Of a stretch of DNA of 64,000 nucleotides, positions 18,597 through 58,400 are shown piece by piece. The translations under genes and the position numbers were made by a program. The notes under the pieces were generated by a model. The model was not told the DNA's origin. It did not search any database and worked only from the letters and a program-made list of their open reading frames with translations. The DNA lies in NCBI GenBank assembly GCA_020629155.1, contig JAHDDW010000003.1, forward strand, positions 1 to 64,000, in the 5' to 3' direction. The stretch is from Acidimicrobiales bacterium (GTDB lineage: Bacteria; Actinomycetota; Acidimicrobiia; Acidimicrobiales; SZUA-35). The stretch's first letter is position 1, and every line of letters begins with the position of its first letter.

Positions 18597-19745
18597 GTGT
18601 CCCAAAGGTCAACCTCTCAAGCTTCTGCGTTAGTACGTTTTCCTTCAAACCGCACCCAGACTCGTCAGTGGTTACAGTTTTCTTCTGCTATAGGCTCGAC
18701 ACAAACCAATGCGCTAGGTGACGTCGTTGCGTGTCTTGCAAAAGTAGAACAAGCCGTTTCAAACGGTTTATGGGCTGTTGGGTACCTCTCTTATGACGCA
18801 TCTCCTGCGTTTGATCCAAAACTGGTAGCACACTGCGATCTGACGATGCCGCTCGTGTCATTCTATTTTTTTGATCAGCCAACTATTCTTGCTACGCTGC
18901 CCCCTCCACGTACTAAACTGTTGCAGCCTCTTGCCTGGGAGTACTCCCATGACCAAGCCCTGTACAACAAAAAACTACAACAAATCAAAGAATATATCGA
19001 AGTTGGAGATACCTATCAAGTCAACTACACGTTGCGTCTTGCCGCCAAGTATAGCGATGACCCATATACTTTTTTTCATCTCATGCACACAGCGCAGCAA
19101 GCGAAATATAGTGTGTATCTTGATTTTGGCCGACACAAAATTTGCTCAGCCTCTCCCGAGCTTTTTTTTCATCAGCATCACGAGATACTTACGACGAAGC
19201 CGATGAAAGGAACAGCTAAGCGCCACAGCGACCCTCAGCTTGACAACCAGTTAGCGCAACAATTGCAGTCAAGCGAAAAAAATCTGGCTGAGAATACGAT
19301 GATTGTCGATATGGCTCGCAACGATTTAGGCCGAATCTGTCGATATGGCAGCATTGAAACAACAAAGTTGCATGCGATAGAGTCCTATCCGACGGTCCAT
19401 CAAATGGTTTCAACAGTTTCTGGTCACACTGATGCTTCACTAGTTGAGGTGTTGCATGCCCTTTTCCCTGCTGCTTCTATCACAGGGGCGCCAAAGTATC
19501 GAACAAGTGAAATAATTGCTGAACTTGAGACGACGCCACGAGGTCTCTATACAGGATGTATCGGTGCGATCTCTCCAGATGGAATCACTGAATTTAATGT
19601 GGCTATTCGCACAGCAGTGATCGATACTGACCAACAAAAAGTGAGCTATGGCGCAGGCGGCGGGATCGTCTATGATTCTAATAACGAAGACGAATGGCAA
19701 GAGATGAACCAAAAAACTAAAATTATTGTCGATAGCGTCACCTGA
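18597..19745 (+). CDS. pabB: Aminodeoxychorismate synthase component I
   Basis: PabB converts chorismate to aminodeoxychorismate for folate synthesis. The chorismate-binding domain shows GDTYQVNYTLRL, SASPELFF, ENTMIVDMARNDLGRI and FPAASITGAPK. Lys204 in KPMKGTAKR matches the PabB-type PIKGT lysine rather than the PIAGT of anthranilate synthase, which supports PabB over TrpE. At 382 residues it lacks most of the usual N-terminal region. The amidotransferase PabA is not in the window. pabC follows with a 1-base overlap. Confidence 0.9.
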   Translation: MSQRSTSQASALVRFPSNRTQTRQWLQFSSAIGSTQTNALGDVVACLAKVEQAVSNGLWAVGYLSYDASPAFDPKLVAHCDLTMPLVSFYFFDQPTILATLPPPRTKLLQPLAWEYSHDQALYNKKLQQIKEYIEVGDTYQVNYTLRLAAKYSDDPYTFFHLMHTAQQAKYSVYLDFGRHKICSASPELFFHQHHEILTTKPMKGTAKRHSDPQLDNQLAQQLQSSEKNLAENTMIVDMARNDLGRICRYGSIETTKLHAIESYPTVHQMVSTVSGHTDASLVEVLHALFPAASITGAPKYRTSEIIAELETTPRGLYTGCIGAISPDGITEFNVAIRTAVIDTDQQKVSYGAGGGIVYDSNNEDEWQEMNQKTKIIVDSVT

Positions 19746-20362
19746 TGGCTCCCTTTAAGTTGTTAGAAACTATGCGGTATGAGCCGTCTTTAGGCATTGT
19801 ATTGCAAGAGTTGCATTTTGAGCGGCTCGGTAGCGCAGCGAAGCATTTCGGTTTCGAAATGGCAGATGCTTCCACCACTAAGATAGCAAAAAAGTATATT
19901 CCTGGGGCATTCAGTACTTCATTCGTCGTGCGCATCACGGTTGATAACGCAGGCGCACTAGTAGTTGAAGAGAAACCACTGCCAGCTGTTACACCACTGC
20001 TACGTGTCTGCTTTGCGGCTCAGCCATTAGATGCAGCAAATGAATTTTTGTATCATAAAACAACAAATCGATCTGTCTATCAACAGGCACGGCAACCTTT
20101 CCCAAATGTTGATGACGTTATCTTATGGAATGAAGCTGGCGAGATTTGCGAGACAACGTTCGGGAACATCGTCGTCAAACTAGATGGCCGCTATATAACA
20201 CCGCCAAACGAAGCTGGGCTTCTGCCAGGAACCTTCCGACAAAAACTGCTCAACGATAAAATTATTGTAGAGCAAACCATTTCGAAGCAAGCATGTGAAG
20301 AAGCAACCGACCTGTTCTTTATCAATTCGGTTCGGGGCTGGGTCAAGCTGACGCTAGTCTAA
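19745..20362 (+). CDS. pabC: Aminodeoxychorismate lyase (class IV PLP enzyme)
   Basis: PabC releases pyruvate from aminodeoxychorismate to give p-aminobenzoate. It is short (205 residues against about 270), like the forms fused to or coupled with PabB. Lys105 in FLYHKTTNR is the likely PLP lysine, followed by WNEAGEICETTFGNIVV and the cofactor phosphate loop LLPGTFRQ. The ATG overlaps the pabB stop (TGATG). The end overlaps the convergent nurA gene by 20 bases. Confidence 0.88.
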   Translation: MAPFKLLETMRYEPSLGIVLQELHFERLGSAAKHFGFEMADASTTKIAKKYIPGAFSTSFVVRITVDNAGALVVEEKPLPAVTPLLRVCFAAQPLDAANEFLYHKTTNRSVYQQARQPFPNVDDVILWNEAGEICETTFGNIVVKLDGRYITPPNEAGLLPGTFRQKLLNDKIIVEQTISKQACEEATDLFFINSVRGWVKLTLV

Positions 20363-21257
20363 GCCCACGTTCTAGCAAATCACGGCTACCTAGACGGCGA
20401 CGCAGTTGACGCTCTAAACCAGAAATAGGATACAGATTTTGCGGCGCTCGCGATTCTTTATGCGCCATACTTGCATACCTTGGCAGCAGCGCAGAAACAT
20501 AGTTTGCCCGCTCAACAGCAGCTTCAATGCTAAGCGACCGAGGTAACTCTAGACGCACGATACTGCTTGCAACCGAACCAACATCAGCAAGCCGCAAGAA
20601 CCATGACCAACGCAAAAACCTACCTTCAATATCGATCAGCGGAGTGCGCTCCCCTGGTTTCAATTTTCCTAACACAGGTACAACATCGTCAGGCAAATAT
20701 TGCACGTGCTGCGACTTTACGTAACCAACGCCACAGGCAAGCTCACGTTGCTGCAAAGGCCCATCAAATACAACCAGCTCTTCATCTTCGCACTCTGCTG
20801 AGATAAGATCTTCCAGCCGAGCCATATGGTTTTGCACACTCATATTTAAAGCTTCGCTTGAATCATCTTTTGTTGCTTTAAACTTGTACGTTTCGCCGAA
20901 TCGTGGCAGCTCTATATCAGCTATTCCTACCGCACTAGTATGTACCGCACGTTCGATACGAGTGTGTTCCACTTCAGCTTTTGTGGCTGTGCAGCGTACA
21001 GAACCAGCACCCACCGTTGCACAAATACCTCGGTGTGGATGGCCCTCGTCTTCAAACCAGATGTGTGCATCGAAACGACGCACGCCGTCGATAAAGATAA
21101 TTGATGAGCGCAGGTTAACAGCTGGCACACTAATGGGTTTCCACTTCTCTACAGCAACCTCGGCATCGACTTTTACTGATTCGCTCGCTGAATCTAACTC
21201 GTTTATTTCTATTGGAGAGCCGTACGAAGGATCCCATGTTTCAACAAAAAAGCTCAT
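20343..21257 (-). CDS. nurA: NurA-like nuclease
   Basis: NurA is a nuclease that works in the central channel of the HerA translocase to resect DNA ends. The 304-residue protein shows the NurA pattern: SIIFIDGVRRFDAHIWF with Asp57 early, ELVVFDGPL with Asp165 in the middle, and later RLEL. The family assignment rests on these motifs and on position: it is the last gene of herA-sbcD-sbcC-nurA, overlapping sbcC by 4 bases. It overlaps the convergent pabC at its 3' end. Confidence 0.82.
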   Translation of the reverse strand: MSFFVETWDPSYGSPIEINELDSASESVKVDAEVAVEKWKPISVPAVNLRSSIIFIDGVRRFDAHIWFEDEGHPHRGICATVGAGSVRCTATKAEVEHTRIERAVHTSAVGIADIELPRFGETYKFKATKDDSSEALNMSVQNHMARLEDLISAECEDEELVVFDGPLQQRELACGVGYVKSQHVQYLPDDVVPVLGKLKPGERTPLIDIEGRFLRWSWFLRLADVGSVASSIVRLELPRSLSIEAAVERANYVSALLPRYASMAHKESRAPQNLYPISGLERQLRRRLGSRDLLERGLRLASA

Positions 21258-23671
21258 GCTGTCACTTTCTCTACCGTCGAGGTTGAAGGGTTTTTGGTTA
21301 CTTCGTAGCGCACTGGCATGCGCATCGCCATCTCGCGAACATGGGTTACGATAACAACCATCGTGCCGTTAGATGCTAACTCTTCAATTGCTCCAGCGGC
21401 AATATCTAACGTTTCGGCGTCTAATGTTCCGAAGCCCTCGTCAAGAAAAATCGATTCTAGTCGTGGTGAATCTAGCGATGCTAGCTCTGCAACTGAGTCA
21501 GACAAGGCGAGCGCCAAGGCAAGCGATACAAGAAAGGTTTCGCCACCTGAAAGCGTCCGCACATCACGTCGCTCGCCTGCATTCAGGTGATCAACAATCT
21601 GAAAGTTTCGATCATGCAGCTCTAATGAATATTGTTTGCTTGATAAGGTTTGTAGACGCTGCGTGGCACGTACTACTATTTCTTCCATAGCTTCAGCAAG
21701 CAACCAGCCTTCAAAACCTTGTGCCGATAAATGACGGCCGAGTACTTCGGCTGTTTTAACTGCTTTCTGCTCTGTTCGCATCTCTGAGGTAAGCCGTTTT
21801 CTTTCTGCCGTGTGATTTTCAATCGTTGCGATAGCTCGCTGTGCCTGTGATTTCGCTTCAGCAATAACTATAGTAAGTTGGTCAAACTCCGACAGTTCGA
21901 GCTGAGCCTCGGCCGCACTACTCTGAAGCTCGTCAACAAGTTGTTTCTTTTCTCTAGCAAGGCGTTTACCTTTTCCTGCCAAAGCTTCACGCTCTTTGGT
22001 AAGCAATGCAACTTTTTCTGTCGCCCAACTGGCCAGGTTCTTGGCCATTACAGAAACTTCTTGCTGGTCAATAGCTGGCGGCCCTAGAACAGCGACGCTA
22101 TCTCTGAACGCTAAAAAGTTAGCGTGTTGTGTTTTTTCTGCTTGTTCAGCTTCTCGAAGGCGTTGCTGAACGTGGATTAAAACTTTCTCTGCCGCTACTA
22201 TTTTCGCTGCCAACTCTTTTTGTTTTTGCTCATTTTTCTTAGCAGCAACCAGTTTTTTTTCGACTTCTGTTTTTGTTAAAGCATCACTAAGAAGCTGCTC
22301 GGATTCAGCAACATGGATGCTTTCGCGCTCTAGCGCTTTTTGTATAGCTTTAACACCAGCCTCCGAAGCAGCAGCACTTTTTGTTGCTTGTGCCAGCGTG
22401 GTTTCGCTTTTTTTCAGCACGCTACGCAACTCCTGCAATGCTTCAGGAGGAACGTGATCGGGCACTTCCGATACATCTTGTTCACATACTGGACATGGCT
22501 CGCCAACAACAAGTTGCGCACGCCACCCGTCACTGTCAGCCTTAGCTCTAGCGATGTTAAATTCAGCTGCAGCAGCTTCTTGCGCTTTTTCTGAGACTCT
22601 CAGATTCTTCTGCGCCACCTTGTCAGCGTTCTCAGCTTCAGCTAGTTCACTGCCAAGTTTTTTAGCTGCCTCAAAATGATTCTCATAATGGCTATGCCGT
22701 TGCTGCATCTCGTGTAGTTGTAAAAGCGAATACTCGGCTGGTTGTACTTCTTGTTGCTCTCTGCGTGCGCTCTCAACAAGAAGTTGAGATTCTTCGAATG
22801 CTGCGACAAGTGAGCCAATTTCAAAATTTTTGTACTCAAATGGCTTATCAGTAATGTCTTTAAGCAGCACAAGCGATGAATCAAGTTCTTTCACTTGGTC
22901 ACGTATTGGCGATAAATCTTGTTCGATTTGGTTTACCTGTTTTTGCAGTTTGAGGCCATCTGCTTCAAATTGTTCAATGTCTCCAAGTGCTGTTTGTGCT
23001 TTTTCCAATGCGTCTGGCTCAATACTATGGCGCTGTTTTTCTGATTCTAGAAAAAGAATTTTCTGCTTCGCATGTTTTGCCTTTTCACGAGATCGTGAAC
23101 CCATTTTTGCATAGATCTCAACATCAAGAAGCCGACGAAGCAACTTTTGCCGTTCGGCTGGTTCATCTTTAAGAAATCGCGCAAACGCACCTTGCGGCAA
23201 AACAACGGTGCGCGTGAACTGTGAAAAGTTAAGACCCAGCAGGTCTTCTACGGCTTGGTCAAGCTCTTTCACATTGCCTGCGAGCACTTGTGTCTGTGTG
23301 TTTTCGTCAGAATCTGCACTAGATAAATGGCGTTCAAGACGTGCTTCTTTTGTTGTGGCTTTTACTTTGCCAGGTGTTTTTGATTGCAAACGACGAACAA
23401 CTCGAACAGCGGTGTAGGTGCTATTTCCAAGTTGAAACGTTAAACAGACCCTGGCTTCGTTCGCAAGCTGATGGATGACTGGGGCAACAAGATTTGTCTT
23501 ATCATAACGAGGCAACGAGCCATAAAGGGCGAAAGTTATCGCATCGATTATTGTCGATTTTCCAGAGCCTGTTGACCCGACGAATGCGGCAAGTTCGACA
23601 TCGGTGAAATCCACTGTGGTGTATTCTTTATAGGCAGCAAACCCTTTAAGTTCTAACGATAATGGCCTCAT
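21254..23671 (-). CDS. sbcC: SbcC/Rad50-type SMC-like ATPase
   Basis: The Rad50/SbcC subunit tethers and senses DNA ends for the Mre11/SbcD nuclease. The N-terminal P-loop is FVGSTGSGKSTIIDAI. Long coiled coils flank a zinc hook (GEPCPVCEQ near residue 395). The C-terminal half has LSGGETFLVSLALALALSD (signature) and Walker B LESIFLDEGFGTLD, ending near YEVTKN. At 805 residues it is a shorter coiled-coil version than E. coli SbcC. It overlaps sbcD and nurA by 4 bases each. Confidence 0.93.
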   Translation of the reverse strand: MRPLSLELKGFAAYKEYTTVDFTDVELAAFVGSTGSGKSTIIDAITFALYGSLPRYDKTNLVAPVIHQLANEARVCLTFQLGNSTYTAVRVVRRLQSKTPGKVKATTKEARLERHLSSADSDENTQTQVLAGNVKELDQAVEDLLGLNFSQFTRTVVLPQGAFARFLKDEPAERQKLLRRLLDVEIYAKMGSRSREKAKHAKQKILFLESEKQRHSIEPDALEKAQTALGDIEQFEADGLKLQKQVNQIEQDLSPIRDQVKELDSSLVLLKDITDKPFEYKNFEIGSLVAAFEESQLLVESARREQQEVQPAEYSLLQLHEMQQRHSHYENHFEAAKKLGSELAEAENADKVAQKNLRVSEKAQEAAAAEFNIARAKADSDGWRAQLVVGEPCPVCEQDVSEVPDHVPPEALQELRSVLKKSETTLAQATKSAAASEAGVKAIQKALERESIHVAESEQLLSDALTKTEVEKKLVAAKKNEQKQKELAAKIVAAEKVLIHVQQRLREAEQAEKTQHANFLAFRDSVAVLGPPAIDQQEVSVMAKNLASWATEKVALLTKEREALAGKGKRLAREKKQLVDELQSSAAEAQLELSEFDQLTIVIAEAKSQAQRAIATIENHTAERKRLTSEMRTEQKAVKTAEVLGRHLSAQGFEGWLLAEAMEEIVVRATQRLQTLSSKQYSLELHDRNFQIVDHLNAGERRDVRTLSGGETFLVSLALALALSDSVAELASLDSPRLESIFLDEGFGTLDAETLDIAAGAIEELASNGTMVVIVTHVREMAMRMPVRYEVTKNPSTSTVEKVTA

Positions 23672-24831
23672 TGCAGCACCTCAGCTGAAGCGCTTTGTAT
23701 CTCGTCAAGGAGAGAAGCGAACTCTTTCGTTAACGTTTCATCAGCATTGTGCTGCTCTTCTAAGTAATCGCCGAAGAGTTGGATCGGGGTGCGCCCATCA
23801 CGCCGTTTTGTTTGCTGGTGTGTTGCATCTTCAACAGCTGTTATCTGTATTTCTACAGCAGCTTGACCAAATAGCTCACGGACATCATCAGCTAGACCTA
23901 CCCGATATGGTTCCTCCACACGAATTCGTAGCCATTCGTTGCCGACATCTTTTTTCTGTTCAGCGAGAGACTCGAAAGTGCCAACCAGCGTCCGTAGTTG
24001 ACGACCACTCTTCAGTTCGACTGCTTCCACTTTGGCAGGCAACCCAGCGGATGCTTCAACAATATTTACTTGCTTGGTTTGCGCTTCTTCACCAAAATCG
24101 AGCTGCAACGGCGAACCGCAATAATGCAGCGCTGTAGGGCCAGCAATTTTTTGTGGACGATGCAGGTGGCCTAGCGCTGCATAGGTCACACTCGTTGGGA
24201 AGTCATTTGCACTAACACCATATTCATCAATGAGATGTGCTGGACGTTCACCGCCACCAGCGACAGCACCTGTTACAAAACAATGCCCAACTAAAATGTT
24301 AACGCTTTCGGCATCGAAGCTAGAACTTAACGCTTTAATAACTTGACGCAGCCGCGCAGTATAGGTTTGCGCATTCTGAAAGGCGGCTTGACTCATCAAC
24401 GATTGCGCTTTAACAATCGCACGTTGTGAGATAAACGGTAGCAACGCTAGCTGTGCTTTTTCTTTTGAAGCGGTTTCGATAGTGATGACTCCACCGTCGG
24501 CAGCCGATTTTGGTTGACACCCCACTGTTATCTGTGCAAGATCAAGCAGTGGCGTTACTGCCTGTAACTTTCTATGGTTGTCATGGTTACCTGCAATAGC
24601 TATGACAGGTGCAATCTCTGCAAGCTGCAGCAAGGTCTCATAGACAATAGTTTCGCTTTCAGGCGTTGGTGCTGCTGTTTCAAAGAGATCGCCAGCGACA
24701 ATAGAAAAATCGACGTTATGCTCAGCAGCGAGTGAAATGATCTCTGCAAAAACAGCTTTGTGTTCTTGGGCACGGCTATGCCCACGAATTGTTTTACCGA
24801 CATGCCAGTCGGAGGTGTGCAAAAATTTCAC
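23668..24831 (-). CDS. sbcD: SbcD/Mre11-type exonuclease subunit
   Basis: This Mn-dependent phosphoesterase cuts DNA ends together with SbcC. Its 387 residues contain all the metal-binding motifs in order: HTSDWHVGKTI, VAGDLFE, IAGNHDNHRK, VGHCFVTG and ALGHLHRPQ. The C-terminal part is the capping domain and SbcC-binding tail. The start overlaps the herA stop by one base, and the end overlaps sbcC by four. Confidence 0.94.
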   Translation of the reverse strand: MKFLHTSDWHVGKTIRGHSRAQEHKAVFAEIISLAAEHNVDFSIVAGDLFETAAPTPESETIVYETLLQLAEIAPVIAIAGNHDNHRKLQAVTPLLDLAQITVGCQPKSAADGGVITIETASKEKAQLALLPFISQRAIVKAQSLMSQAAFQNAQTYTARLRQVIKALSSSFDAESVNILVGHCFVTGAVAGGGERPAHLIDEYGVSANDFPTSVTYAALGHLHRPQKIAGPTALHYCGSPLQLDFGEEAQTKQVNIVEASAGLPAKVEAVELKSGRQLRTLVGTFESLAEQKKDVGNEWLRIRVEEPYRVGLADDVRELFGQAAVEIQITAVEDATHQQTKRRDGRTPIQLFGDYLEEQHNADETLTKEFASLLDEIQSASAEVLQ

Positions 24832-26543
24832 TATAAACCTTCGAACGGGTCAACGTTGCTGTCGGCTTCATCGGCGCTTTGCGCTTCGGAAGGTCGCGTA
24901 GCCCACGACGGAAACGGAAACTCGACCAGCAGTGGCACAGGAAGGCGCGGTTGCGCTATATACATGGAGCCAGGTTTCAAAATAGTTGCTCGTTTACGCT
25001 GCACGCCTGGTAGAAATCCATATTCGTCACGGCGAGCTTCGGCAGGGTCTAACCGGCCGACAACTCGAATAGCGCTGTTGGCTACCACACGGCGTTCGAC
25101 TTCGCTTGCTGTTTGCTGTGCGCCGATCAAAATAATGCCAAGTGAACGGCCACGCTCGGCCACATCTAACAGAATCTCTTTGATAGGGCTCGATGAATCT
25201 CTCGGTGCATATTTGTTTAATTCGTCAAGAACTACAAGTTGCAACGGTTTTGCTGAACCGCTCGCTTCTTTCTCGTCAAAAGCCTGCCGCAGAACAACAC
25301 CTACAACGAAACGCTTCGCTCTATCGTGCAGCGCATGAATATCAATAACAGTAACCTGATGCGAATCTAGATCAAGGGCGTGCTGCGCTGAATCGTCGAT
25401 ATCAGAGCGAATCAAATGCTCAACATGGCGGCGAGCTGACGCCAGCCGACGCACAAATGCGTTAATGGTGCCTGTGCCTACGGCTCGACCTGTCCACCGT
25501 TGATCGGCACCATCTTCAGGATTAGCAGGCACAAGCTTATTTTCTATAGCATCAAGCAGCGCCCCAAACGTGCGGATTATTTGGCCATCAAAGTTAACAG
25601 CACCATCGCCTGTGACAGGAAGCTGTCGCAGCTGCGCAGTAACGGCTTGCACAACAATGGTGTATTGTTGACGTTCATCTTCGGCATCAGCGAACAAAAA
25701 TGGCAACAAATTCTGTTGACAGAAATCAGCGACTGTCCAAAAAAACGGGCTCACGCCAAGGCTGCGAGACCCTGTTGATGGTGTTGCGTTTGCATCGCCT
25801 CGCCTCGGCGGCGCAAGAATCCCTACATCTTTAAACGGGCCAGGATCGATACCCAACGGTTTATAGCGGGCAGCATCTTTATCCTTTAAATCGCCATTTT
25901 TATGGTCTAAGAAAAGCAAATCTTCGCCTTTCACATTAAAAATAAGTGCTTTCGTGTTTGCCGCCTCGGCTCCGAGCACACCTGAGGTAAACATGGAATA
26001 CAACAGAAACGTAGCAAAACTTGTTTTTGTGGCAACGCCAGAAATACCCGAAATGTTGATATGGGCACCTTTTGTTCCATCGATAAAATCAAGATCAAGA
26101 AAAACAGGTTCGTTGTTACGTGACAAACCAGCAGGCAGGCGACGTTCGACCGAGTCGAACGATAGAGCAATGTCACGCTCTTCATCTTCTGCGCGCCTCA
26201 CTGGGTCGCCAGGGAGAGGAGGCAGCAAAATCTCTGGCTCAAACCGAGTGGGCTGTACTAACGCTGCTTCGCTCACTTCGGCAGGCAGAATACCTTCAGA
26301 AATCAGGAATACATCACTTTGAAAGGTTGCACCCTCATGACGAGCACGGATTTGTGTCACCATGCCATAGATATGTACCACTTCGCCGCTTGGCAACACT
26401 CGATCCATAGCAACCACATCATCAAGCTGCAACGCCTGGCCAGGTTCGACAGCAACCCAAAACTCTAATGGTGTTGCATCGTCTATACCAATGACTCGAC
26501 CGACAGTTTCTGACTTTACTGATTTGGCTTTTTTCTTGGCCAT
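24831..26543 (-). CDS. herA: HerA-type DNA translocase
   Basis: HerA is a hexameric FtsK-like translocase that pumps DNA into NurA. Residues 12-85 form a HAS-type beta-barrel (VGRVIGIDDATPLEFWVAV). The P-loop is the variant GISGVATKTSF at 166-176 (Lys173); Walker B is QLVVLDELNKYAPRD. A C-terminal arginine-finger region (VVGRLDPAEARRDEYGF) follows. It heads a four-gene operon. A GAGG lies before the ATG. Alternative annotation would be a generic DUF87 ATP-binding protein; the linked nurA, mre11 and rad50 genes favour HerA. Confidence 0.88.
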   Translation of the reverse strand: MAKKKAKSVKSETVGRVIGIDDATPLEFWVAVEPGQALQLDDVVAMDRVLPSGEVVHIYGMVTQIRARHEGATFQSDVFLISEGILPAEVSEAALVQPTRFEPEILLPPLPGDPVRRAEDEERDIALSFDSVERRLPAGLSRNNEPVFLDLDFIDGTKGAHINISGISGVATKTSFATFLLYSMFTSGVLGAEAANTKALIFNVKGEDLLFLDHKNGDLKDKDAARYKPLGIDPGPFKDVGILAPPRRGDANATPSTGSRSLGVSPFFWTVADFCQQNLLPFLFADAEDERQQYTIVVQAVTAQLRQLPVTGDGAVNFDGQIIRTFGALLDAIENKLVPANPEDGADQRWTGRAVGTGTINAFVRRLASARRHVEHLIRSDIDDSAQHALDLDSHQVTVIDIHALHDRAKRFVVGVVLRQAFDEKEASGSAKPLQLVVLDELNKYAPRDSSSPIKEILLDVAERGRSLGIILIGAQQTASEVERRVVANSAIRVVGRLDPAEARRDEYGFLPGVQRKRATILKPGSMYIAQPRLPVPLLVEFPFPSWATRPSEAQSADEADSNVDPFEGL

Positions 26544-26640
26544 AAAGGCTACCTCACAACTTGTTTCCTCCTAACCTAACAAACACGTGTGACATTTTAT
26601 GAAAGTTACGTTATCTATTTAGCAAATATTGATTTTACTT

Positions 26641-26820
26641 GGGTATGTCAATTCAAGGTTTAGTCTGTCATTTCCAGCCACAACTAGGAATCTAGATCTC
26701 CAATCAAGTTGGAGATGACAAAACTAGGTTGGGTATGTCAATCCAAGGTTTAGTCCGTCATTCCCAGCTGCGACTGGGAATCTAGATCTCCAATCAAGTT
26801 GGAGATGACGAAACTAGGTT
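26641..26820. repeat. Two 90-bp tandem repeats with inner inverted repeats
   Basis: Units 26641-26730 and 26731-26820 are equally long and differ at about ten positions. A decayed third copy of the first and last 20 bases continues to about 26870. Each unit carries a 55-bp core running from TGTCAT or CGTCAT to ATGACA or ATGACG (26666-26720 and 26756-26810) with two small hairpins, TTCCCAG/CTGGGAA and ATCTCCAA/TTGGAGAT. A related element is at 44309-44383. Confidence 0.85.
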
Positions 26821-26954
26821 GGGTATGATGAAACTAGGTTGGAGATGACAGAAGTAGGTTCGAGATGACGTTCTAGTTTAAATTATGATTTTTGCTTGAC
26901 CATTCTTTCTCTGTGGTTCATGATGCAGGTAGGTCATTTCTTCTGAAGTGACAT

Positions 26955-27034
26955 GTGTTAACATTAGAGGGAATCACATTCGGTTGCGGGGGCTTGGCGG
27001 GGCCAACTGACCGAGATTCTCCTCGTGTTAACAC
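26955..27034. promoter_or_regulatory. Pair of GTTAAC-centred palindromes
   Basis: GTGTTAACA-type palindromes occur at 26955-26964 and 27025-27034 (the second, GTGTTAACAC, is perfect), 70 bases apart. The first overlaps a possible extended -10 box, TG-T-TAACAT (26956-26964). They could bind a dimeric regulator of the downstream peroxiredoxin gene. Confidence 0.35.
26967..27024 (+). ncRNA. Candidate structured RNA or leader upstream of peroxiredoxin
   Basis: Three nested helices can form: GAGG+GAATC (26967-26975) with GATTC-t-CCTC (27015-27024); CGGT (26981-26984) with ACCG (27010-27013); and TTGGC (26994-26998) with GCCAA (27002-27006) around a GGG loop. The segment is G-rich, unlike its surroundings, and starts just after a possible -10 box. 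It matches no RNA family I recognise. Confidence 0.35.
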
Positions 27035-27036
27035 CG

Positions 27037-27072
27037 ATGGTGCTTGCACGGTTTATACTGAGCAAGCACCAT
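27037..27072 (+). terminator. 11-bp hairpin before the peroxiredoxin gene
   Basis: ATGGTGCTTGC (27037-27047) pairs perfectly with GCAAGCACCAT (27062-27072) around a 14-base loop, followed by TGCTTTTGG. It could end a short transcript or act as a leader attenuator; the T-run is short. Confidence 0.4.
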
Positions 27073-27118
27073 TGCTTTTGGCGCAATGTTTCGACCCACT
27101 ACTGCGATACGAGGACAT

Positions 27119-28146: not shown

Positions 28147-29712
28147 CTAGTTGTTGGCCAAAACCTCAAACGCGAAGCTTGCGATGTTTCTTGTTTCTTC
28201 GCTGAAGGTTATGCCAACTAAGATAATTTGGTCAGCGTGTGTTTTATACTTTTCGGCATAGTTCTTCTCTTTAATCTGGCTAAGGGCATTCGAAAACTCT
28301 GGGGCTGAATTTGCAGTTACTTTGAATTCAAGGATGTAAACAATTTTTTCGCCGCTTGAATCGTTGACCTGTAGCGTCAAATCAATTCGCCCTTTATTCG
28401 TAACATCTTCAGCTGTTACCACAGCACCGAGAGAGTTTAAATACGCATACATAACAGAGGCGTAATAACCCTCATACTGCGCAATCTTGTTATTACGATA
28501 GTTGTCGTTTGCGATGCCGCTAAATAACGACACGATCTGTTTTTCTAAAGATGTAAGATCAACCTGCTGTAACGCTTTCATCGCAGGCAGAAGCTTCGGT
28601 GTTTTTTCTAGCAAATAGTTTTTCAAAACAAGCTGGTTAAAGCTTGTTCGCACTTCATGGTTCGGAAAACCTAACTCAAAAACATCGGAGCCATACACCG
28701 TCTCGGCTCCTGTGATTGTGATATAGCCACTTTGAAACAGCAACGTTTCAAGTTGCAGATTGTTTGTGTCAAAGCTGCCTAACACTTCATAGGTTGCCTC
28801 AATAGAATCAAGTAATGGAAGATGATAGTGGCTAGAACGCAACACCTGCAACAAAAAACTTGGTGTGCCTGTTTCGAACCAATAGGGACGATACGAGTGC
28901 TCGTTCTGTAGAAACAACAAAATATCAAAAGGGTTATACACCTTTTCGCCCAGCCAGTTATAGCCGTTATACCATTGCCGCAGCTTTTCCATATCGACGC
29001 CATGAAGCACCTCAGAGAAATACGTTGCAACTTCGTCGTGGGTATAGCCACAAAGTGACCCGAAGCGGCGGCCAATCGAGATATCCTCCAAATTGTTTAA
29101 CCCACTAAATACTGAAACCTTCGAAAATTTTGACACGCCCGTAAGAAACGCAAACCGCAAAGCATTATCTTGGTCTTTAATAGCAGAATAAAGACTTTGC
29201 AAGCCACGAGTTATTTCATGCAGTTCGCTATTCGCTAAATTATCCAGAATAGGTTTATCGTATTCGTCGATAAGAACAACTACTTTTTGATCAAATTGCC
29301 GCTGCACAGCACTAATCAAGGTAGACAAGGCCACAGCATTATCAAGCGCTGCATCTAACTCAACGCCTAAGCGTTGCGCATTTTCTTGCAAAAGCGCCAT
29401 AACTCGGACATTTAACTCGGCTCGGGATTCAACAATGCCGTTCGCAAACGAAATATGAATAACTGGATGTTTCGTTTCCCACGCCCATTCGCTATGAATC
29501 GCTAGACCCTCAAAAAGTTCTTCTGCCCCCTCGAAAAGCTCTTTCAATGTGTCAACCAATAGCGATTTTCCAAATCTGCGTGGCCGAGACAAGAAATAAT
29601 ATTTACCCTCAACAAGACGTTTAATATCAGCTGTTTTATCGACATAGACATACCCTTCAGAAATAATTTCTCTGAAGCTGCTAATGCCAATGGGTAAACG
29701 TTTCGAGGCCAT
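28147..29712 (-). CDS. AAA ATPase with C-terminal PD-(D/E)XK nuclease domain, second copy
   Basis: This 521-residue protein is a clear paralogue of the one at 6411-7967. Both begin with LPIGI followed by YVDKT and share SRPRRFGKSLL, VDEYDKPILD, LTGVSKFSKVS/LTGVTKFSKVS, MEKLRQWYNGYNWLGEKVYNP-like segments and the nuclease motif D444...E462-x-K464. A TATAGT box lies nine bases before the ATG, implying a very short leader. The two copies differ throughout, so the duplication is not recent or they arrived separately. Confidence 0.88.
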   Translation of the reverse strand: MASKRLPIGISSFREIISEGYVYVDKTADIKRLVEGKYYFLSRPRRFGKSLLVDTLKELFEGAEELFEGLAIHSEWAWETKHPVIHISFANGIVESRAELNVRVMALLQENAQRLGVELDAALDNAVALSTLISAVQRQFDQKVVVLIDEYDKPILDNLANSELHEITRGLQSLYSAIKDQDNALRFAFLTGVSKFSKVSVFSGLNNLEDISIGRRFGSLCGYTHDEVATYFSEVLHGVDMEKLRQWYNGYNWLGEKVYNPFDILLFLQNEHSYRPYWFETGTPSFLLQVLRSSHYHLPLLDSIEATYEVLGSFDTNNLQLETLLFQSGYITITGAETVYGSDVFELGFPNHEVRTSFNQLVLKNYLLEKTPKLLPAMKALQQVDLTSLEKQIVSLFSGIANDNYRNNKIAQYEGYYASVMYAYLNSLGAVVTAEDVTNKGRIDLTLQVNDSSGEKIVYILEFKVTANSAPEFSNALSQIKEKNYAEKYKTHADQIILVGITFSEETRNIASFAFEVLANN

Positions 29713-35189: not shown

Positions 35190-37964
35190 CTACGCAGCCT
35201 CCTCTAGTGCAACGAGTTCGCCTAAGTCATCGTCAGATAAGTCACCTAGCCAGGCTTCGCCGCCTCCAATTGCTTTATCTGCTAATTGCCGTTTGACTCG
35301 CAAAAGCTCAGCCACCCGATCTTCGACGGTGCCTTGCGTGACTATTCGATGCACAGTCACTGTCTGTTTTTGACCAATGCGATAGGCACGATCGGTTGCT
35401 TGATCTTCAACCGCTGGGTTCCACCAACGGTCATAATGAATCACGTTGCTTGCCGCAGTCAGGTTCAACCCAGTGCCGCCAGCTTTGAGAGAAAGAATCA
35501 ACACATCAATCTGTTTATTTTGGAACTGGTCAACAAGCTGCTGACGAGATTTGACGCTTTGTCCGCCATGGAGCATCTCAACCTTATAGCCTGCTTCATC
35601 AAGATGGCTTGTCAATAACTCCCCCATTTTCACATATTGTGTAAAAATTAATGTTGACTCTTCACTTTGTCGTGCTGTTTCTAACAAGGTAAGCAACGCA
35701 TCGATTTTGCCCGAACGGCCAGCAAGCGGTGCGCTCTGCCCAAGGTATTGCGCTGGATGGTTGGTGATCTGCTTCAAACCCGTCAACAGTTTCAGAACAA
35801 GCCCTCGACGCTTGATCCCATCTGTTTGGGCAACCTCAGTCAACGCAGAATCGACCGTTGCTTTATACAGCGTTACCTGTTCAGGTGACAGCGGCACCAC
35901 AACATCGCGCTCTATTTTCGGTGGAAGCTCAGGCGCAATGCCAGGGTCTGTTTTTTTGCGGCGCAACAGGAAAGGCTTCGTCAGCTGTTGCAGTTCGGCA
36001 GACGCTTTGGTGTCGTTGTCTTTTTCGATAGGTAGCGCAGTGCGGCGGCGGAACGTTTCAAGCGGACCTAGCAGACCTGGCACCGCCCAATCGAGAATTG
36101 ACCATAGCTCGCTCAGGCGATTTTCGACAGGCGTTCCTGTTAGAGCAATGCGAGCGTTGCTTTGCAGCTGACGAAGTGACTTTGCTGTGCGAGAAAAAGG
36201 GTTTTTTGCGTGCTGCGCTTCATCTGCCACGCACAAATCCCACAGCTGTTCTTTGATAGCTTCATTGTCAGATCGAACAACGCCATAGGTTGTGATAACA
36301 AGTTCACCTTCTTGAATATTGTCAAGGGTCCGATTGGGGCCGTGATAGATTCGCACAGATACATCTGGCACAAACTTTGCAGCTTCACGCGCCCAGTTGT
36401 GCAGCAACGACGTCGGGCAGACAACCAACGTCGACCCACCTCGAAGCGCATGCAGTGAAAGCACCTGGATGGTTTTGCCAAGCCCCATATCATCAGCTAA
36501 ACAGCCACCCATTCCGAGTGAACACAAGTCGGCCATCCACGCTAAACCTCTGCGCTGATACGGCCGCAAGACAGCCTGCAAACCTGGCGGCTCGCTTTGT
36601 TCTCTCGCGTTAGAAAGTTCAAGCAGTTGTTGCGCGATAGCCGCAACACGGTCGTCGGTCCGGATAGCAAAGTCACCGTCTTCATCTTCGAGATCTATCG
36701 ATGACCCCAACGCTGCAGTTAACGCAACAACAGGGTGAAGCTCTGGCGGTCGCTGACGTAAACGCTCAGCAAAACTGCGGTCAATGCGCACCCATTTGCC
36801 GCGTAACTGGACGACGCTACGTTTCGCCCGACCCAAAATTTTCAGTTCGTCAGGCTTCAGCGGTGACCCTTCAAGCAGAAACTCCCAGTTAACTTCTAGC
36901 AACGCTTTTAGCCCTGTCATCGAAGGTAAGCCGCTTTCTGGCGGCCCGCTTGTGACAACAAGCTGGCGTTCTATCTTTGGTGCGACAAGCTCAGACGGCC
37001 AGCGAACATCTATGTCGATATTGTTGAGTGCTTCGAGCTGGTCAAGCAAAATATCTAACTCATCATCGTCTAGCCAAGCCTCGGTCGGGTTTGTTTGTTG
37101 TAAAACATTTTTAAATGGCGAAACAAGATCGGCAAGGCGTCGCAAACCAGCAAGCAACGTGATTTCTGCCTGCTCACCCAAGCGTTGCATCACCTTGGCA
37201 GGAGTCTGCCAGAAATTGGAAACGTCGATGACAAGCGATGGATCAAGCTTGCTTTGCAGGTGAAACGTGACTAGCCACTGTGCGGCGTCTTCTTCTGGAG
37301 GATGCACCCGCAGAATAAGTTGCGAACTAGCGCAATGTGCAACAGCTAGGTCGTTGAGCCAGGGGCGAAGCTGAGGTGCTTTTGTAGGCTGACGATCAGC
37401 GAAAAGAGTAAGTCCGCTAGCATCACTAGCCGCAGATGTTCGGATGAAACAGTCGGCAACTGCATCAAAAAAACTTCGCAAACAATGCGTTGGGTCGCTC
37501 ATGAACAGTTGCTTTGAACGAGTGTTTTGATTCTTAACAACTGTTGCATGCGCCTCGACAGGCAACGCTTTCGCTAGATGCTGCACATAGGTAAGATCTT
37601 GCTGATCGAGTGGGTCGACCCTCCACGAGTCGTATTTCTGCGGACTCAGCCACGGCAGCACTTTGCCCTCTGCAATAAATGCCAGTGCTGTACGCATTGC
37701 CACAGCCCAAACATGTGCACTTTCGCTTGCTGCATCGTCTTTAGAAAGCGCAGCTAACGAATCGATAACCCCAGCTAGTTCTAGCTTATGCGCCGCAACG
37801 CTTACACGCTGACTTCCACGTTTTGCTGGAAGAACAAGCTCTAGATCGACTGTATCAGCATCACTGGTTGAGAAAAGACCGCCAGGAGCAGCAGACTCCC
37901 AACACCCAAACCAAGAGGTACGCGGCGGATCAGCCGCAACAAAAGTCAGGTTCTTCTCAAACAT
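35190..37964 (-). CDS. SNF2-family DNA-dependent ATPase/helicase
   Basis: The 924-residue protein has an N-terminal domain of about 450 residues (bacterial SNF2 type), then the ATPase core: GMGGCLADDMGLGKTIQVL (motif I), TTYGVVRSD, ADEAQHAKNP (motif II), ALTGTPVENRLSELW (III), and the C-terminal lobe with STLIFTQYVKMGELL, LSLKAGGTGLNLT (V) and ATDRAYRIGQ (VI). It probably remodels protein-DNA complexes. A TATGCT box lies six bases before the ATG with an SOS-box-like GAAC-N4-GTTC just upstream. It heads the SNF2-SWIM(-hrpB) cluster. Confidence 0.93.
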   Translation of the reverse strand: MFEKNLTFVAADPPRTSWFGCWESAAPGGLFSTSDADTVDLELVLPAKRGSQRVSVAAHKLELAGVIDSLAALSKDDAASESAHVWAVAMRTALAFIAEGKVLPWLSPQKYDSWRVDPLDQQDLTYVQHLAKALPVEAHATVVKNQNTRSKQLFMSDPTHCLRSFFDAVADCFIRTSAASDASGLTLFADRQPTKAPQLRPWLNDLAVAHCASSQLILRVHPPEEDAAQWLVTFHLQSKLDPSLVIDVSNFWQTPAKVMQRLGEQAEITLLAGLRRLADLVSPFKNVLQQTNPTEAWLDDDELDILLDQLEALNNIDIDVRWPSELVAPKIERQLVVTSGPPESGLPSMTGLKALLEVNWEFLLEGSPLKPDELKILGRAKRSVVQLRGKWVRIDRSFAERLRQRPPELHPVVALTAALGSSIDLEDEDGDFAIRTDDRVAAIAQQLLELSNAREQSEPPGLQAVLRPYQRRGLAWMADLCSLGMGGCLADDMGLGKTIQVLSLHALRGGSTLVVCPTSLLHNWAREAAKFVPDVSVRIYHGPNRTLDNIQEGELVITTYGVVRSDNEAIKEQLWDLCVADEAQHAKNPFSRTAKSLRQLQSNARIALTGTPVENRLSELWSILDWAVPGLLGPLETFRRRTALPIEKDNDTKASAELQQLTKPFLLRRKKTDPGIAPELPPKIERDVVVPLSPEQVTLYKATVDSALTEVAQTDGIKRRGLVLKLLTGLKQITNHPAQYLGQSAPLAGRSGKIDALLTLLETARQSEESTLIFTQYVKMGELLTSHLDEAGYKVEMLHGGQSVKSRQQLVDQFQNKQIDVLILSLKAGGTGLNLTAASNVIHYDRWWNPAVEDQATDRAYRIGQKQTVTVHRIVTQGTVEDRVAELLRVKRQLADKAIGGGEAWLGDLSDDDLGELVALEEAA

Positions 37965-37997
37965 ATCCCGAGCATACCAAGAACGAACACTTGTTCC
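37965..37997 (-). promoter_or_regulatory. SNF2 promoter with SOS-box-like palindrome
   Basis: TATGCT (37976-37971, minus strand) lies six bases before the ATG. CGAAC-ACTT-GTTC (37984-37996) matches the core of the Gram-positive/actinobacterial LexA box, CGAAC-N4-GTTCG, except the last base. It lies between the expected -35 and -10 positions, where a repressor would block RNA polymerase. No lexA gene is in the window. Confidence 0.5.
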
Positions 37998-52477: not shown

Positions 52478-55400
52478 TTACCTAGCGTTTTGCCTACCGA
52501 AACGCAGTGCAGCACAACCGCCTAACATAAACACAAGCGCCGCCAGCAGTGCAAGCCATAGCGACGAACCAGTAAAGGCAATCGCTAGCTCACTATCATT
52601 TGTTATGACTACCGATGCGCTATCTTGGCTATCTGTCGACGACGGATCGTTATCTGTCACACCAGTTGTTAAAACTTCAATCGGCGTCGAAGCTTCGACA
52701 GTCGCTACATTTGTGAACCCTTCAGTCACGTTTTCGGCGACACATTGCACAACCCAAATTTCGCCAACGCCAAGCACAGGCCGCATACCAGCACACGCTG
52801 GCGTGCTCACATCAGATAAAGCAACATCGGTCAACTCGACGTTGCCGGTATTTGTAACAACAATACGAAATGCGACGTCGTCGCCTTCTGTTATGTCAGT
52901 CGACTCGGCCCAATGGTTATCATCGCTACTATCGCATTGTGACGCTTCTTGCGTACAGATCGACTTTTCTAGGCTCATGCTTGGGTATGAACCAAAATAG
53001 TGTGCTGGGTCTTCGTCGGTGACTCGATCAACTGGTTCACCTGTTTCAGGGTTGATAACAGGGGTAAACCCGCCTTCGCCATCAGGTTGCACAGGCACAG
53101 CGGTCACCGAACCGATGTTGACATATGCACCGTTGACCGCTTGGCTCGCTTCGCCTTCACACGTCATTTCAGCGCCGACGGCAAGCTCAGTTGCTGGGCA
53201 GCTTACGCTGACACCTTGATCATCGCTTACAGCAACATCATGGAGAACGCTATCGCCAATGTTCGTAACAACATAGGTCCACGAGACCGCTTCACCTTCG
53301 CTGACATAAAGACCAGGCGCTTCGTTCGCATCGTCGCCGTTGACTGCTTTGATAATAGAAATCGCTGGACCAGCTCCATAATAGAAGCCGTCGTCATCTG
53401 CTGTTACTATAACCGGCGGTGCGTCTTCACCTGCTGGGGTTGTTTCAATTGGTGCGGTGCCGCGTACCTCAGCGATATTGTGATAGTCGCCAGCGGTAGC
53501 AGTGCCTGTCGCTTCAAAAATCCAGGTTTCGTCGGTGTCTAACAGGCCGTCGTCATCAACATCGCCTTCAAGATACAGCGCCGTCAAATCATCGCTTGAG
53601 TCATCAGCGGTTCCGTTGTCATCTGTCACAGCAACATCTGCAAGTGCGACATTGCCTTCGTTTGTTACAGTATAGGTCCACGTGATCGCAGAACCAGCGA
53701 CAATAAACTGGCCAGGGCCAACCTCGTCATCAGACCCGTTTGTTGTTTTCACAATATCGATAGCAGGGGTAGAACCGAAATAGAAATCTGGGTCCTCAGC
53801 TTCAAGAGGATCATAGGTGGTTACCGTTGCGTCTGGGTTTACTGTCGGCGGTGGTGTGCCCGAAGCGACAGCATTGTTTGCATACTGCCCAGCGGATGCA
53901 GTTCCTTCGATCTCGAAAATCCAGGTCTCGTCTACATCTAACAAGCCATCATCATTCAAATCGCCTGAAATATAACTTGCGGCACCCTCAACATCATCGA
54001 CAACACCAACATCGCTAAGCGCAACATTACCTGGATTCGTCACGGTATAAGTCCATGTCACAGGGTTGCCAGCAGCGATATGGGGGCCTGTTTCGCTTGC
54101 GTTGTCGGTTCCGTTTGTTGTTTTCACCAGGTCGATGGCAGGGTCGGAGCCATAATAGTTTGACGGGTCTTCAGCTTCAACTTCTTCACCTTCGACAATA
54201 GTGCCATCACCGTCAACCGTGTCTGGGGCTGTGCCTGTTGCGGTGCCAGTATTGCTATATGTTCCAGCGGTTGCTGTTCCTTCGATCTCGAAAATCCAGG
54301 TCTCATCTACATCTAACAAGCCATCATCATTCAAATCGCCAGAAATATAACTTGCCGCACCCTCAACATCATCGACAACACCAACATCGCTAAGCGCAAC
54401 ATTGCCTTCATTCGTTACCGTATAAGTCCATACAATGTCGCTGCCGTCGGCAAGTAAAACATCGTCGCTGCCGTTGGTTACTTTGTCGATTGCAATCGCA
54501 GGGTCAGAACCAAAATAGTTCGCAACGTCGTCATCTTCTAGCGGGTTATCAAAGATATCCTCACCAGTAGCAACCGCAGTATTAGCATAACGGTCGGCGG
54601 TGGCTTCGGTTTCGTATGTATAGAGCCACGTCTCATCTGGGTCAAGCAACCCGTCATCATCGCTATCGCCAGAAACGTAGGCCGCTGACCAGTCATCACT
54701 TGCATCACCAGGCGTACCAGCATCGTCAACAAGGTCAAGCACCGTTATTTCCCAGTTGCCTGTGTTTGTCAGCTCATAGGTAAATAGCGCCTCTTCCCCA
54801 GCTTCGATAGAAGGTCCAGGTGCAGTGTTTGCATCATCGCCATTGACATATTTAACAACGTTGATGCCGCTAGTGACGCCATAATAATGTGCAGGGTCTG
54901 ACGCAGTTAACCTTTCAAGAACTAACACCACAGGCTGGCCAGTGACCGTAGCAACGTTGCCATATTGGTCTTCTTCAGCAGTAAAACCAGTCGCTTCATA
55001 CAGCCATGTTTCGCCAGGATCTAACCTGCTGTCGTTATCGCTGTCACCGCTTAGATATGACGGCGCAAAATCATCAGTCATGTCTGCTGGCGTGCCGTTA
55101 TCGTCGGTGACTATCACGTCGCTCAACGGCATATTGCCGCCGTTTGTTGTGACACTATAGGTGAAAATAATCGGGTCACCAGCTTCTAACACAACGCCAG
55201 GTGTTGCCTGCGCGTCGTCACCGTTCACGTATTTAGTGATAGTAAGCCCAGGGTCGCTTGTTGGCGTCACTGAGTTCGCATCATTTGTTGCTTCAACTTC
55301 GACGCCAGAACCAATGCCTTCACCTGTTACGTCAGCGGTGTTTGTCAGGCCAGTCACCGCTGTAGAGGTGCTACAAATCCACGAAACATGGTCGCCGACG

Positions 55401-58400
55401 TTAATGTTACCTATCGCTGCTGCATCTCTATCACAGGTGTCTTCAATGTCATCATCGACAACAACGTTTGTCAACATTTCAAAGCCAGTGTTTATAACCG
55501 AGATACGCCACGTTACATCGTTTGTAAACGGTGTTGTCACTGTTTCGACCCAGCCGTCGTTAGGGTCAAGTGGGTCACTTATCAGATCACAATCACCGAG
55601 TGAACTATCACAAACTTCTTTGATAATGTCGATAGCTGGATCGCCTCTGAAACCAAGGTCAACCGTCAAGTTTGACAACTCGTCAAAAGTTGTTGGCGAG
55701 CCAAGAAAGAAAATGTTTTCGCCAGTTGGCTCTAACCCCAACGGCGGGTCTACCGTCGTATCAGCATCAAGCGTGACAATACCAGAAGTTGTATAGCCGT
55801 TTGTTGAATCATACGCCTGCTGATCACGATCTTCGTTCTCGTCATCATCGGCTGATGTCGGCAAAACAGTTTGCGTCCACGTGTCAAGCGTGCCGCCGTT
55901 CAGTTCGCTATCAGGAATACGGACTTCGTAGCGGCCTTCGAGTAACTCTTCGAAAATGTAACGCCCATTGCCATCTGTCGTTGTCGCTGCAACAAATGTC
56001 ATCACGCCGCCGCCTGCGTCTTGCCACAGCTCAACAGTCGTGCCGCTAATAGGCTGATCGACCCCAGCAGTGAACTTACCGTCAACGTTTGTGTCAAGGA
56101 AAACTAAGTCGCCAACGTTAAGCGCAAGCACTTGGACAAGCACTTCATTAGAACGCACCAAATCATCTACACTGTCGGTTCGAGCTGCGAACCTGTTGAC
56201 ATAACGATCGGCTGGTTCATTCGGGTTCGCAACCGTACCAGCTTGCATCTCAAAGGTTGCTACAACTGACGATTCTGACAGCAACACATCAGTTTGAATA
56301 AAACGCACTGCTGTCACATCATCTAGCACAAAATTGCACGGGGCAGCAGCACCTAGCATTTCAGCCTGCGTACACCATGTGACTGAGCCAGTTGACAGAT
56401 CATTCGCCGCTGCGTCAGCATCATAAGGGATCGTGTTCGGATCATCAGCCGAGTAATACCATGTACCGTTTGTCGGTGTGGTGCTACCGCCGACAAGCAG
56501 CGTCGTAGGTTGTGACATCCAGTTAGTTAAAAAGTAATCGCCTGAATAGTTTGAATCGAACTCAGTTCGTTGATTCAACGGATTAACGCTGTCGCCGTTA
56601 TAACCAAACACATCAATAACATCAGGCGGCGAGAAATCAAAATCTGTTGAAAGGTTACGCCACCCGATCGTGTATTCTTGCGTGTCAAGTTGCAGCTCTA
56701 ACGGCGCGTCAACCTCTTTAAAAAGTTGCAGCTCGCCGCTTGCGACAACGGTAACTGTTCGTTCATCTTCACGAGCTGACGCTGGCGAAACGTCAGTATC
56801 CGAAGAGATTTCTACATTATTTATAAGATCTGTGCCAGGGTCAAGAAAATTGTCGATTTTTGTGCACAAAGGAATCGGACCGATCGGCTCGTTTGTTGCA
56901 CGAGTACCAAGATCGAAAACAACTGTTGTTGTTCCATCAGCGTTTGCTGTCACCGAAGATAACGCAACGTTGGCGTCAGGATAGGTTTGTTGCGACTGGC
57001 ACGACAAGTTGAAACTAACCCCAGCAGGTAACGTATCTGTAATAGTAACGCCAGTTGCTGGTGCACCTGATGTCACGGCTGTAACCGCAGGTTGTAGCCA
57101 CCACACAACAAAGTCCGAACCTTGGACATTAACAAGGTCATCATCAGTCGGCGAAGACGAATCAATAGACGCTGTTTTTGTTATCCGTACTTGATGACGA
57201 TTTAAGAAAAGCCGGTCGCCCCATCCAGAGTTTTCGTACGTTTCAGCGTCCATATGTGTTGTGCTGTAAGGGACACTTCCATATTTACGGTTTGCGTTGT
57301 TAGCCAAAATAGTACCGACGTCGATTGTCTGTCCATCGCGTGGACCGCCGTTATAAGTATCTCTGATCTCAACAGGAAACGATACTTGAAAATATTGTGA
57401 CGGCTTGATCTCAGACACAACCGTAGGGTCAACACGGACACGGATCATCCCAATTTTTTCTAGCGATGTCGTCGGATCAGAATCGAAACTTAACGGGTCA
57501 CTCGACCAGTCATTATTTGGCGCGCTACAGGTTTGTACCGCTGCAACTTGATTAGACCAGTCGTTTGCTGTCACATCATCGTTAAACCCAGCAGTCGCGT
57601 ATTCGACAATGAAAGCGTTAGCTGGTAAAACGCTTCGTATATAGACAGGCTCGCCGCCAGTCCACGTTGTGAGTGACATGGTTGAATTGTCGAACGCGTC
57701 ACAAAGCTCAGCTGACTCGGCTGGCCATGGCGTTGTGCCGTCATTGCGCATCCAATACCAGAAATGAGCTTTTTCACCAGGTTGCACCGGCGCGTCACCC
57801 TGCGAACACGCTTGGGTTTGTCCACTCATCAGTGCTCCAGCAGCAGCCGAACCACATGGGTAACTTGAAGCTGTTCCAACAGGAACACCATCGGGAATAC
57901 GCCCATCAGCCCATTCATATGACCCTAGATGTTTACTAAACCCACCTCGTTCTTTTATCGATACGTTGACTTGACGATCATTATTGTCAGTTGGCTCTTG
58001 CCCATCGCCATAGTTGCTTTGCCCAGTCGCATCTATCGGGTCAAAGTTGGTGATCTCGTTCACCAGCGGATAATCGCCTTCGATAGGGTCATCGCCATAT
58101 TCCCAGTCTGGATCTATGCGTTGATAAAACTCACTCAGCGGATACCAAATAACCACACGACCAGAGAAAGCGACGTATGGTCCAGCCGCCAGCGAATTAC
58201 CGTTTAGACCTTCAGTAGGGATTGGCGAACCATCAGTGTCGACATTGGTGACAGTAATATCAATCTGATTGTTAGCGTAATCTTCAACACAGTTCCATGT
58301 GCCGCGGGTGCCCCAATCTTGAGGTCCTGCAGCATCTATGGGCAAGTTCGTTCCGCTAGGGTATGGCTGGTTATGGCAAGAAACTAAATCCCAGCCAGCA

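Follow-up and report, generated by a model that had tools for sequence, protein, structure and literature searches.

The first 64,000 nucleotides of the 239,690-base contig JAHDDW010000003.1 from an Acidimicrobiales bacterium (hereafter the window) carry an operon of four genes, herA, sbcD, sbcC and nurA, whose products probably process double-strand DNA ends for repair. The operon is real, widespread in relatives and of a known kind; it is of interest mainly because the enzymes that bacteria commonly use for this task were not found in the genome that bears it. No AddAB, AdnAB or RecBCD was found there, which makes it one of four exceptions among 86 herA-bearing genomes of the class Acidimicrobiia, and a gap in the assembly is a possible cause.

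Operon structure and protein identities

As read from the open reading frames (ORFs), the four genes span window positions 20343-26543 on the minus strand. The first gene, herA (24831..26543, 570 amino acids), would by homology encode a hexameric double-stranded DNA translocase. It overlaps by 1 base with sbcD (23668..24831, 387 amino acids), which encodes a phosphoesterase subunit of the Mre11 family. This gene in turn shares 4 bases with sbcC (21254..23671, 805 amino acids), encoding an ABC-type ATPase of the Rad50 family with a CPVC zinc hook, and sbcC shares 4 bases with nurA (20343..21257, 304 amino acids), encoding an RNase-H-fold nuclease. These identities and the tight overlaps had been proposed in a sequence-only reading of the same DNA, and both the ORFs and homology bear them out.

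The NurA identity of 20343-21257 was found by profile as well as by fold. The protein matched Pfam PF09376 in hmmscan (E 8.9e-6, 25.8 bits, cut-off 21) and, in a phmmer search of solved-structure chains, Deinococcus radiodurans NurA (drNurA; E 7e-22, 81 bits). A PF09376 profile search of the whole genome gave no match, though hmmscan of the protein and the family alignment did. The AlphaFold2 model (predicted local distance difference test 89.8, predicted template modelling score 0.88) fits Thermotoga 1zup with Z 23.8 and drNurA (7f6d_G of 7f6d) with Z 23.0. Other scores were lower: archaeal 3tai reached 12.6 and Endonuclease V about 11.

HerA matched D. radiodurans HerA (drHerA, 7f6d_B) at E 1e-145 and 489.5 bits in phmmer; the other solved chains listed reached only E 0.011 and 0.13, and we take them to be bacterial. 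The hidden Markov model check suggested in the earlier reading did not by itself identify HerA, which stayed under the Pfam and NCBIfam cut-offs (HAS-barrel E 0.042, DUF87 E 0.15); the identity stands on the phmmer match. Its Walker A motif, GISGVATKT, is identical to that of drHerA, and a Walker B LDE lies at residue 439.

SbcD scored 171.5 bits against TIGR00619 (cut-off 77.65), also matched PF00149 and PF12320, and has the phosphoesterase motifs DWHVG, GDLF, GNHDN and GHLH. SbcC matched PF13476, exceeded the cut-off for PF13558 and reached 269.9 bits against TIGR00618, under its cut-off of 478.5; it bears Walker A GSTGSGKS, LSGGE and DEGFG. The CPVC hook noted earlier is indeed present, at residue 393, but the protein is not short, since SbcC of relatives measures 724-999 amino acids where the ORF is resolved and 805 is ordinary. 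By their scores, SbcC and SbcD are of the bacterial form; HerA and NurA belong to the Deinococcus/Thermotoga bacterial type.

An archaeal origin of the proteins was considered and rejected, the closest solved relatives being the D. radiodurans chains (489 and 81 bits); among the solved chains listed for NurA and HerA, there is none that we take to be archaeal. The earlier label "archaeal-type" fits the gene order alone. The same order, herA-mre11-rad50-nurA, occurs in Thermococcus (TK2213-TK2210) and Sulfolobus (SiRe_0064-0061), as their locus tags indicate (PMC4471258), whereas window HerA and NurA best match D. radiodurans chains and the NurA model reaches only Z 15.6 with archaeal 2ygk.

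Conservation of functional residues

In the drNurA-HerA paper, DNA cutting requires D53, K201 and R309 of drNurA, unwinding requires W8 and a pin (residues 10-15), and translocation requires R495 and R552 of drHerA (PMC9960219). Window NurA residues D57, K181 and R270 align to the three catalytic residues (by our own count, the Protein Data Bank numbering of NurA is offset by 20), and they are invariant across 45 sequences, at least 90% of which retain W8. The N-terminus of window NurA has W8 and WDPSYG; because this region lies outside the phmmer alignment, its match to W8 and the pin is by position only. In window HerA, R448 and R505 match drHerA R495 and R552.

The likeness to the D. radiodurans pair takes in the HerA and NurA scores, the Walker motifs and the catalytic and translocation residues. 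A difference is that all four genes, sbcD and sbcC included, form a single operon here; for D. radiodurans, a link of the pair to SbcCD was described in 2015 as still to be uncovered (PMC4663267). With the published catalytic residues kept, the complete HerA-NurA end-resection machine proposed in the earlier reading is plausible, together with SbcCD.

Gene order in relatives

A HerA scan of genome contigs yielded 77 loci, mostly from Acidimicrobiia, with others from Micromonosporaceae, from metagenome-assembled genomes named Gammaproteobacteria or Gemmatimonadetes, and one named Dehalococcoidia. SbcD was found in 68 of them, SbcC in 65 and NurA in 55. All 55 NurA-bearing loci (55/77 in total) have herA-sbcD-sbcC-nurA on one strand, and the four-gene arrangement is more than chance. 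Nine loci lack SbcD, of which L027, L036 and L066 stop at herA; thirteen have SbcD without NurA, and eleven of these appear cut by contig ends.

In the HerA tree the window protein is sister to two Acidimicrobiales loci, L002 and L016 (99/94), and it sits among Acidimicrobiales, in agreement with the actinobacterial host proposed earlier. Pairwise-distance correlations over 49 sets were 0.85 for HerA-SbcD, 0.71 for HerA-NurA, 0.67 for SbcD-NurA, 0.57 for SbcC-NurA and 0.40 for SbcD-SbcC.

A second arrangement, nurA-herA-sbcD-sbcC, occurs in genomes G007 (L139) and G027 (L138), whose HerA proteins are 48% and 37% identical to that of the window. It resembles Oceanithermus profundus, where the same four genes occur in a bacterium, as already published, with hepA (herA) after nurA and with sbcD and sbcC downstream, while in the window operon nurA comes last (PMC5448004). 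In locus L137 the four genes are linked with other genes inserted. Among loci read in surveyed genomes, G075 and G160 have herA-sbcD-sbcC-nurA, in G109 this order is interrupted after herA by other genes that precede sbcD, and in G154 the contig end cuts the locus after the start of sbcD.

In a sample of 247 genomes of the class Acidimicrobiia, HerA was found in 86, NurA in 85 and both in 83, so the set is not rare in the class. The 86 comprise matches at E <= 1e-20 plus contig-edge fragments in G192 and G212; 35 of the 121 HerA matches at E <= 1e-3 were dropped, by judgement, as FtsK/VirB4-like. On the same contig and strand within 8 kb, nurA lies after herA in 38 genomes and before it in 25; in five more the two are 8-11 kb apart, and in 15 they are on separate contigs. 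The 38 include the broken copy of G227, counted as HerA-positive though its HerA and NurA are fragments. This copy, on contig C36, has a stop inside NurA and is apparently decaying, and its genome has AddAB.

Other end-resection enzymes

AdnAB, AddAB and RecBCD have the same presumed job, the making of 3' tails at DNA ends, with different motor and nuclease families. AddA and AddB were searched with both proteins of a relative as queries, and RecC by PF04257. An AddAB match was found in 70 of 247 genomes (69 via AddB, one via AddA alone) and RecC in 47, with a RecB-like match only in three more. No genome had AddAB and RecBCD together at the thresholds used, and HerA-NurA co-occurs with either. 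A comparison of 13 AddAB loci showed no common flanking genes. Of the 86 HerA genomes, 29 have AddAB, 10 RecBCD and 47 neither. An anti-correlation of HerA with AddAB/RecBCD was tested and rejected (47/39 vs 80/81, Fisher p 0.50).

Most of these 47 genomes proved to contain long PDDEXK_1 frames. Among the matches listed, at least 42 of the 47 have a PF12705 match in an open frame of at least 700 amino acids; such frames are not genes, and the sole one of G192 has 740 amino acids and a weak match. In G013, each subunit of a protein pair combines a UvrD helicase with a PDDEXK_1 domain, and the second subunit matches 6ppu_B (248 bits), presumably mycobacterial AdnAB. The pair of G018 resembles it (45% identity across 946 columns for one subunit, 47% across 1033 for the other), and by sequence both pairs are AdnAB-like. 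G133 was added to the carriers because one of its contigs, of 3 kb, holds pieces of both subunits.

Another helicase-nuclease (AddAB, RecBCD or AdnAB-like) is thus seen in at least 82 of the 86 herA carriers, and the HerA-NurA set is therefore normally an addition. The earlier reading had named universality of the operon in close relatives that also carry AdnAB as telling against it; the operon is not universal, yet nearly all its carriers also show one of the three enzymes. Among the matches listed, the carriers in which no other engine was seen are G000, G109, G154 and G204, the assemblies of the last two being 85-87% complete. Among 47 named-locus genomes that were searched, which stand for 47 of the 77 loci, 36 gave an AddA/RecB-like match at E <= 1e-30, a threshold at which AdnAB can be missed, since the control Corynebacterium gives no match there.

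These counts lend themselves to an explanation in which the operon is a redundant backup, another enzyme doing the resection and the four genes being dispensable or specialised, for example for protein-blocked ends. In the window's genome RecJ or RecQ may serve in that role. We consider this rather unlikely here, as AddAB, AdnAB and RecBCD were all not found in this genome.

The window's genome

The genome has 3.17 Mb in 59 contigs, with 97.4% completeness and 2.8% contamination. The earlier reading had seen no RecBCD or AddAB gene beside the operon, and this now extends to the whole genome, and to AdnAB as well. AddA was not found at 1e-20, nor AddB and RecC at 1e-5. The RecB profile gave only frames of up to 910 amino acids, none above the cut-off. 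A single PF12705 (PDDEXK_1) match stands alone in a 294-amino-acid frame, and five UvrD-like proteins (591, 633, 651, 755 and 908 amino acids) have no PDDEXK_1 domain. AdnAB-like queries match the genome's UvrD-like stretches as UvrD relatives only, mostly at 23-37% identity.

It is possible, and we propose it only tentatively, that HerA-NurA-SbcCD replaced AddAB, AdnAB and RecBCD as the sole dedicated end-resection engine in this actinobacterium. The only genome of the same family in the sample, G223, from another genus, has AddAB, matches HerA only weakly (2.7e-7) and gave no match to NurA. Since G223 has AddAB and no HerA/NurA of this kind, such a replacement may have taken place inside a single family. 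An empty-site test for AddAB says nothing on this point, because the flanking gene of G223 finds no counterpart in the window's genome.

Proposed function

Given the gene identities, their order, the catalytic residues and the predicted NurA fold, the four products would probably act together, in this order, in repair, by analogy with the activity known from D. radiodurans. SbcCD, of the Mre11-Rad50 type, would bind ends that are blocked or form hairpins and trim them. The HerA hexamer would then thread the duplex and push it into a NurA dimer, which would split the duplex and cut its 5' strand so that RecA is offered a 3' tail. In vitro, the D. radiodurans NurA-HerA pair does resect the 5' strand (PMC9960219), and without the pair intermolecular recombination drops roughly tenfold (PMC5448004). 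The gene overlaps, the shared order and strand in relatives, the linkage of the four genes in other arrangements, the distance correlations and the failure to find another such engine in this genome also speak for this reading.

Several observations weigh against this function. Beside the helicase-nucleases of the other carriers, six of the nine loci without SbcD (L003, L006, L009, L012, L042 and L075) have herA with no adjoining sbcD, sbcC or nurA in spite of 3-8 kb present after herA, and L004 and L005 lack nurA despite more than 2 kb after sbcC. The HerA-SbcC distance correlation is weak (0.38 over the 49 sets). No SOS-type box was found at herA: a search of the 542 bases upstream for a GAACNNNNGTTC site (up to 1 mismatch), the consensus assumed here, gave none. 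Only D78 of the drHerA triad that contacts NurA (D78, E80, D81) is kept in window HerA; the acidic contact residues align poorly in other bacteria according to the drNurA-HerA paper, which also reports that loss of nurA and herA raised resistance to ultraviolet light and mitomycin C in D. radiodurans (PMC9960219). Moreover, a study published in 2026 questions whether archaeal HerA-NurA serves in resection and suggests an antiviral role instead (PMC12977600).

That study bears on another function, an anti-phage or anti-plasmid nuclease in which HerA would feed invading linear DNA to NurA while SbcCD opens or marks the ends; elsewhere, too, HerA partners with defence effectors (PMC12977600). PADLOC models matched SbcC (mad3 2.8e-26, LmuB 7.9e-26) and HerA (mad8 4e-9, HerA 5e-8), but NurA had no such match, and SbcC-like ATPases match these models as a superfamily. 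The NurA model resembles a chain of TdpAB (Z 13.5), which we take to be a defence system, but it is far nearer drNurA (Z 23). The distribution of HerA is patchy, and a gene with AAA-ATPase_like and PDDEXK_9 domains (window 28147-29712) is the third upstream of herA. The nearest neighbours of the operon are, however, metabolic (pabB, a class IV aminotransferase, a peroxiredoxin and an aldehyde-dehydrogenase family protein by Pfam); the genes adjoining herA are sbcD and the peroxiredoxin gene, with no Sir2 or DUF4297 partner of HerA defence systems there, and the linkage to SbcCD is seen again in loci whose names place them in several phyla. We regard a defence role as distinctly unlikely.

Less probable still, and in our view very unlikely, is that the operon handles or translocates DNA exchanged between cells rather than broken DNA. 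Thermus thermophilus mutants that have lost hepA (HerA) or a second NurA-like gene show a defect in DNA transfer between cells (PMC5448004), but a Pfam scan of 17 non-operon window proteins turned up none for competence or conjugation, the rest of the window and the genome not being searched.

Surroundings of the operon

The intergenic stretch 5' of herA (26544..27085, minus strand, 542 bases) is shared with the divergent peroxiredoxin gene. It contains direct repeats at 26638-26870, two 90-base units that are 91% alike with 20-base-spaced copies around them, and an inverted repeat of 23 bases with a 4-base loop at 27030-27079, immediately ahead of the start of the peroxiredoxin gene. Scans for promoters and terminators found no more than they did in shuffled sequences. 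At the other side, the end of a convergent gene (19745-20362) overlaps the stop end of nurA by 20 bases.

A gene for an SNF2-type helicase lies 8.6 kb upstream of herA (35190-37964, minus strand), and a perfect GAACACTTGTTC palindrome at 37985-37996, 20 bases before its start, is a possible LexA-type site; by our estimate, chance alone would give about one GAACACTTGTTC-type match in the window. Four of the fetched loci (L023, L024, L033 and L069) have a relative of this helicase 1-3 kb past nurA, and the other 11 of 12 flanking window genes had no match in the 77 loci. Further away, a 2388-amino-acid repeat protein (52478-59644) with DUF7507, DUF11 and SdrD_B domains is probably a surface protein.

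Among the relatives, L003, L006, L009, L012 and L042 form a modestly supported group (85/62) in the HerA tree, nested in a clade that also takes in L001, L010 and L019 and has better support (97/92). A small acidic protein of about 135-150 amino acids with a IDLDDLLHPEEQ-like motif follows herA in seven fetched loci (L003:9728-10162, L006, L009, L012, L019, L042 and L001:4141-4548). Five of the seven lack sbcD beside herA, and L001 and L019 have the protein between herA and sbcD. The two copies scanned gave no confident Pfam match.

Significance

HerA and NurA in Actinobacteria already figure in a review (PMC8708640). A literature search, mostly at the level of titles and covering few subscription papers, returned no title on this four-gene operon in Acidimicrobiia. 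Work on bacterial HerA-NurA in Deinococcus and Thermus has given phenotypes that conflict. The conserved operon of Acidimicrobiia and Micromonosporaceae, whose carriers include named species (Dactylosporangium, Planosporangium, Longispora and Asanoa), offers a testing ground for joint end resection with SbcCD, for which a genome without AddAB, AdnAB and RecBCD would be the cleanest test case.

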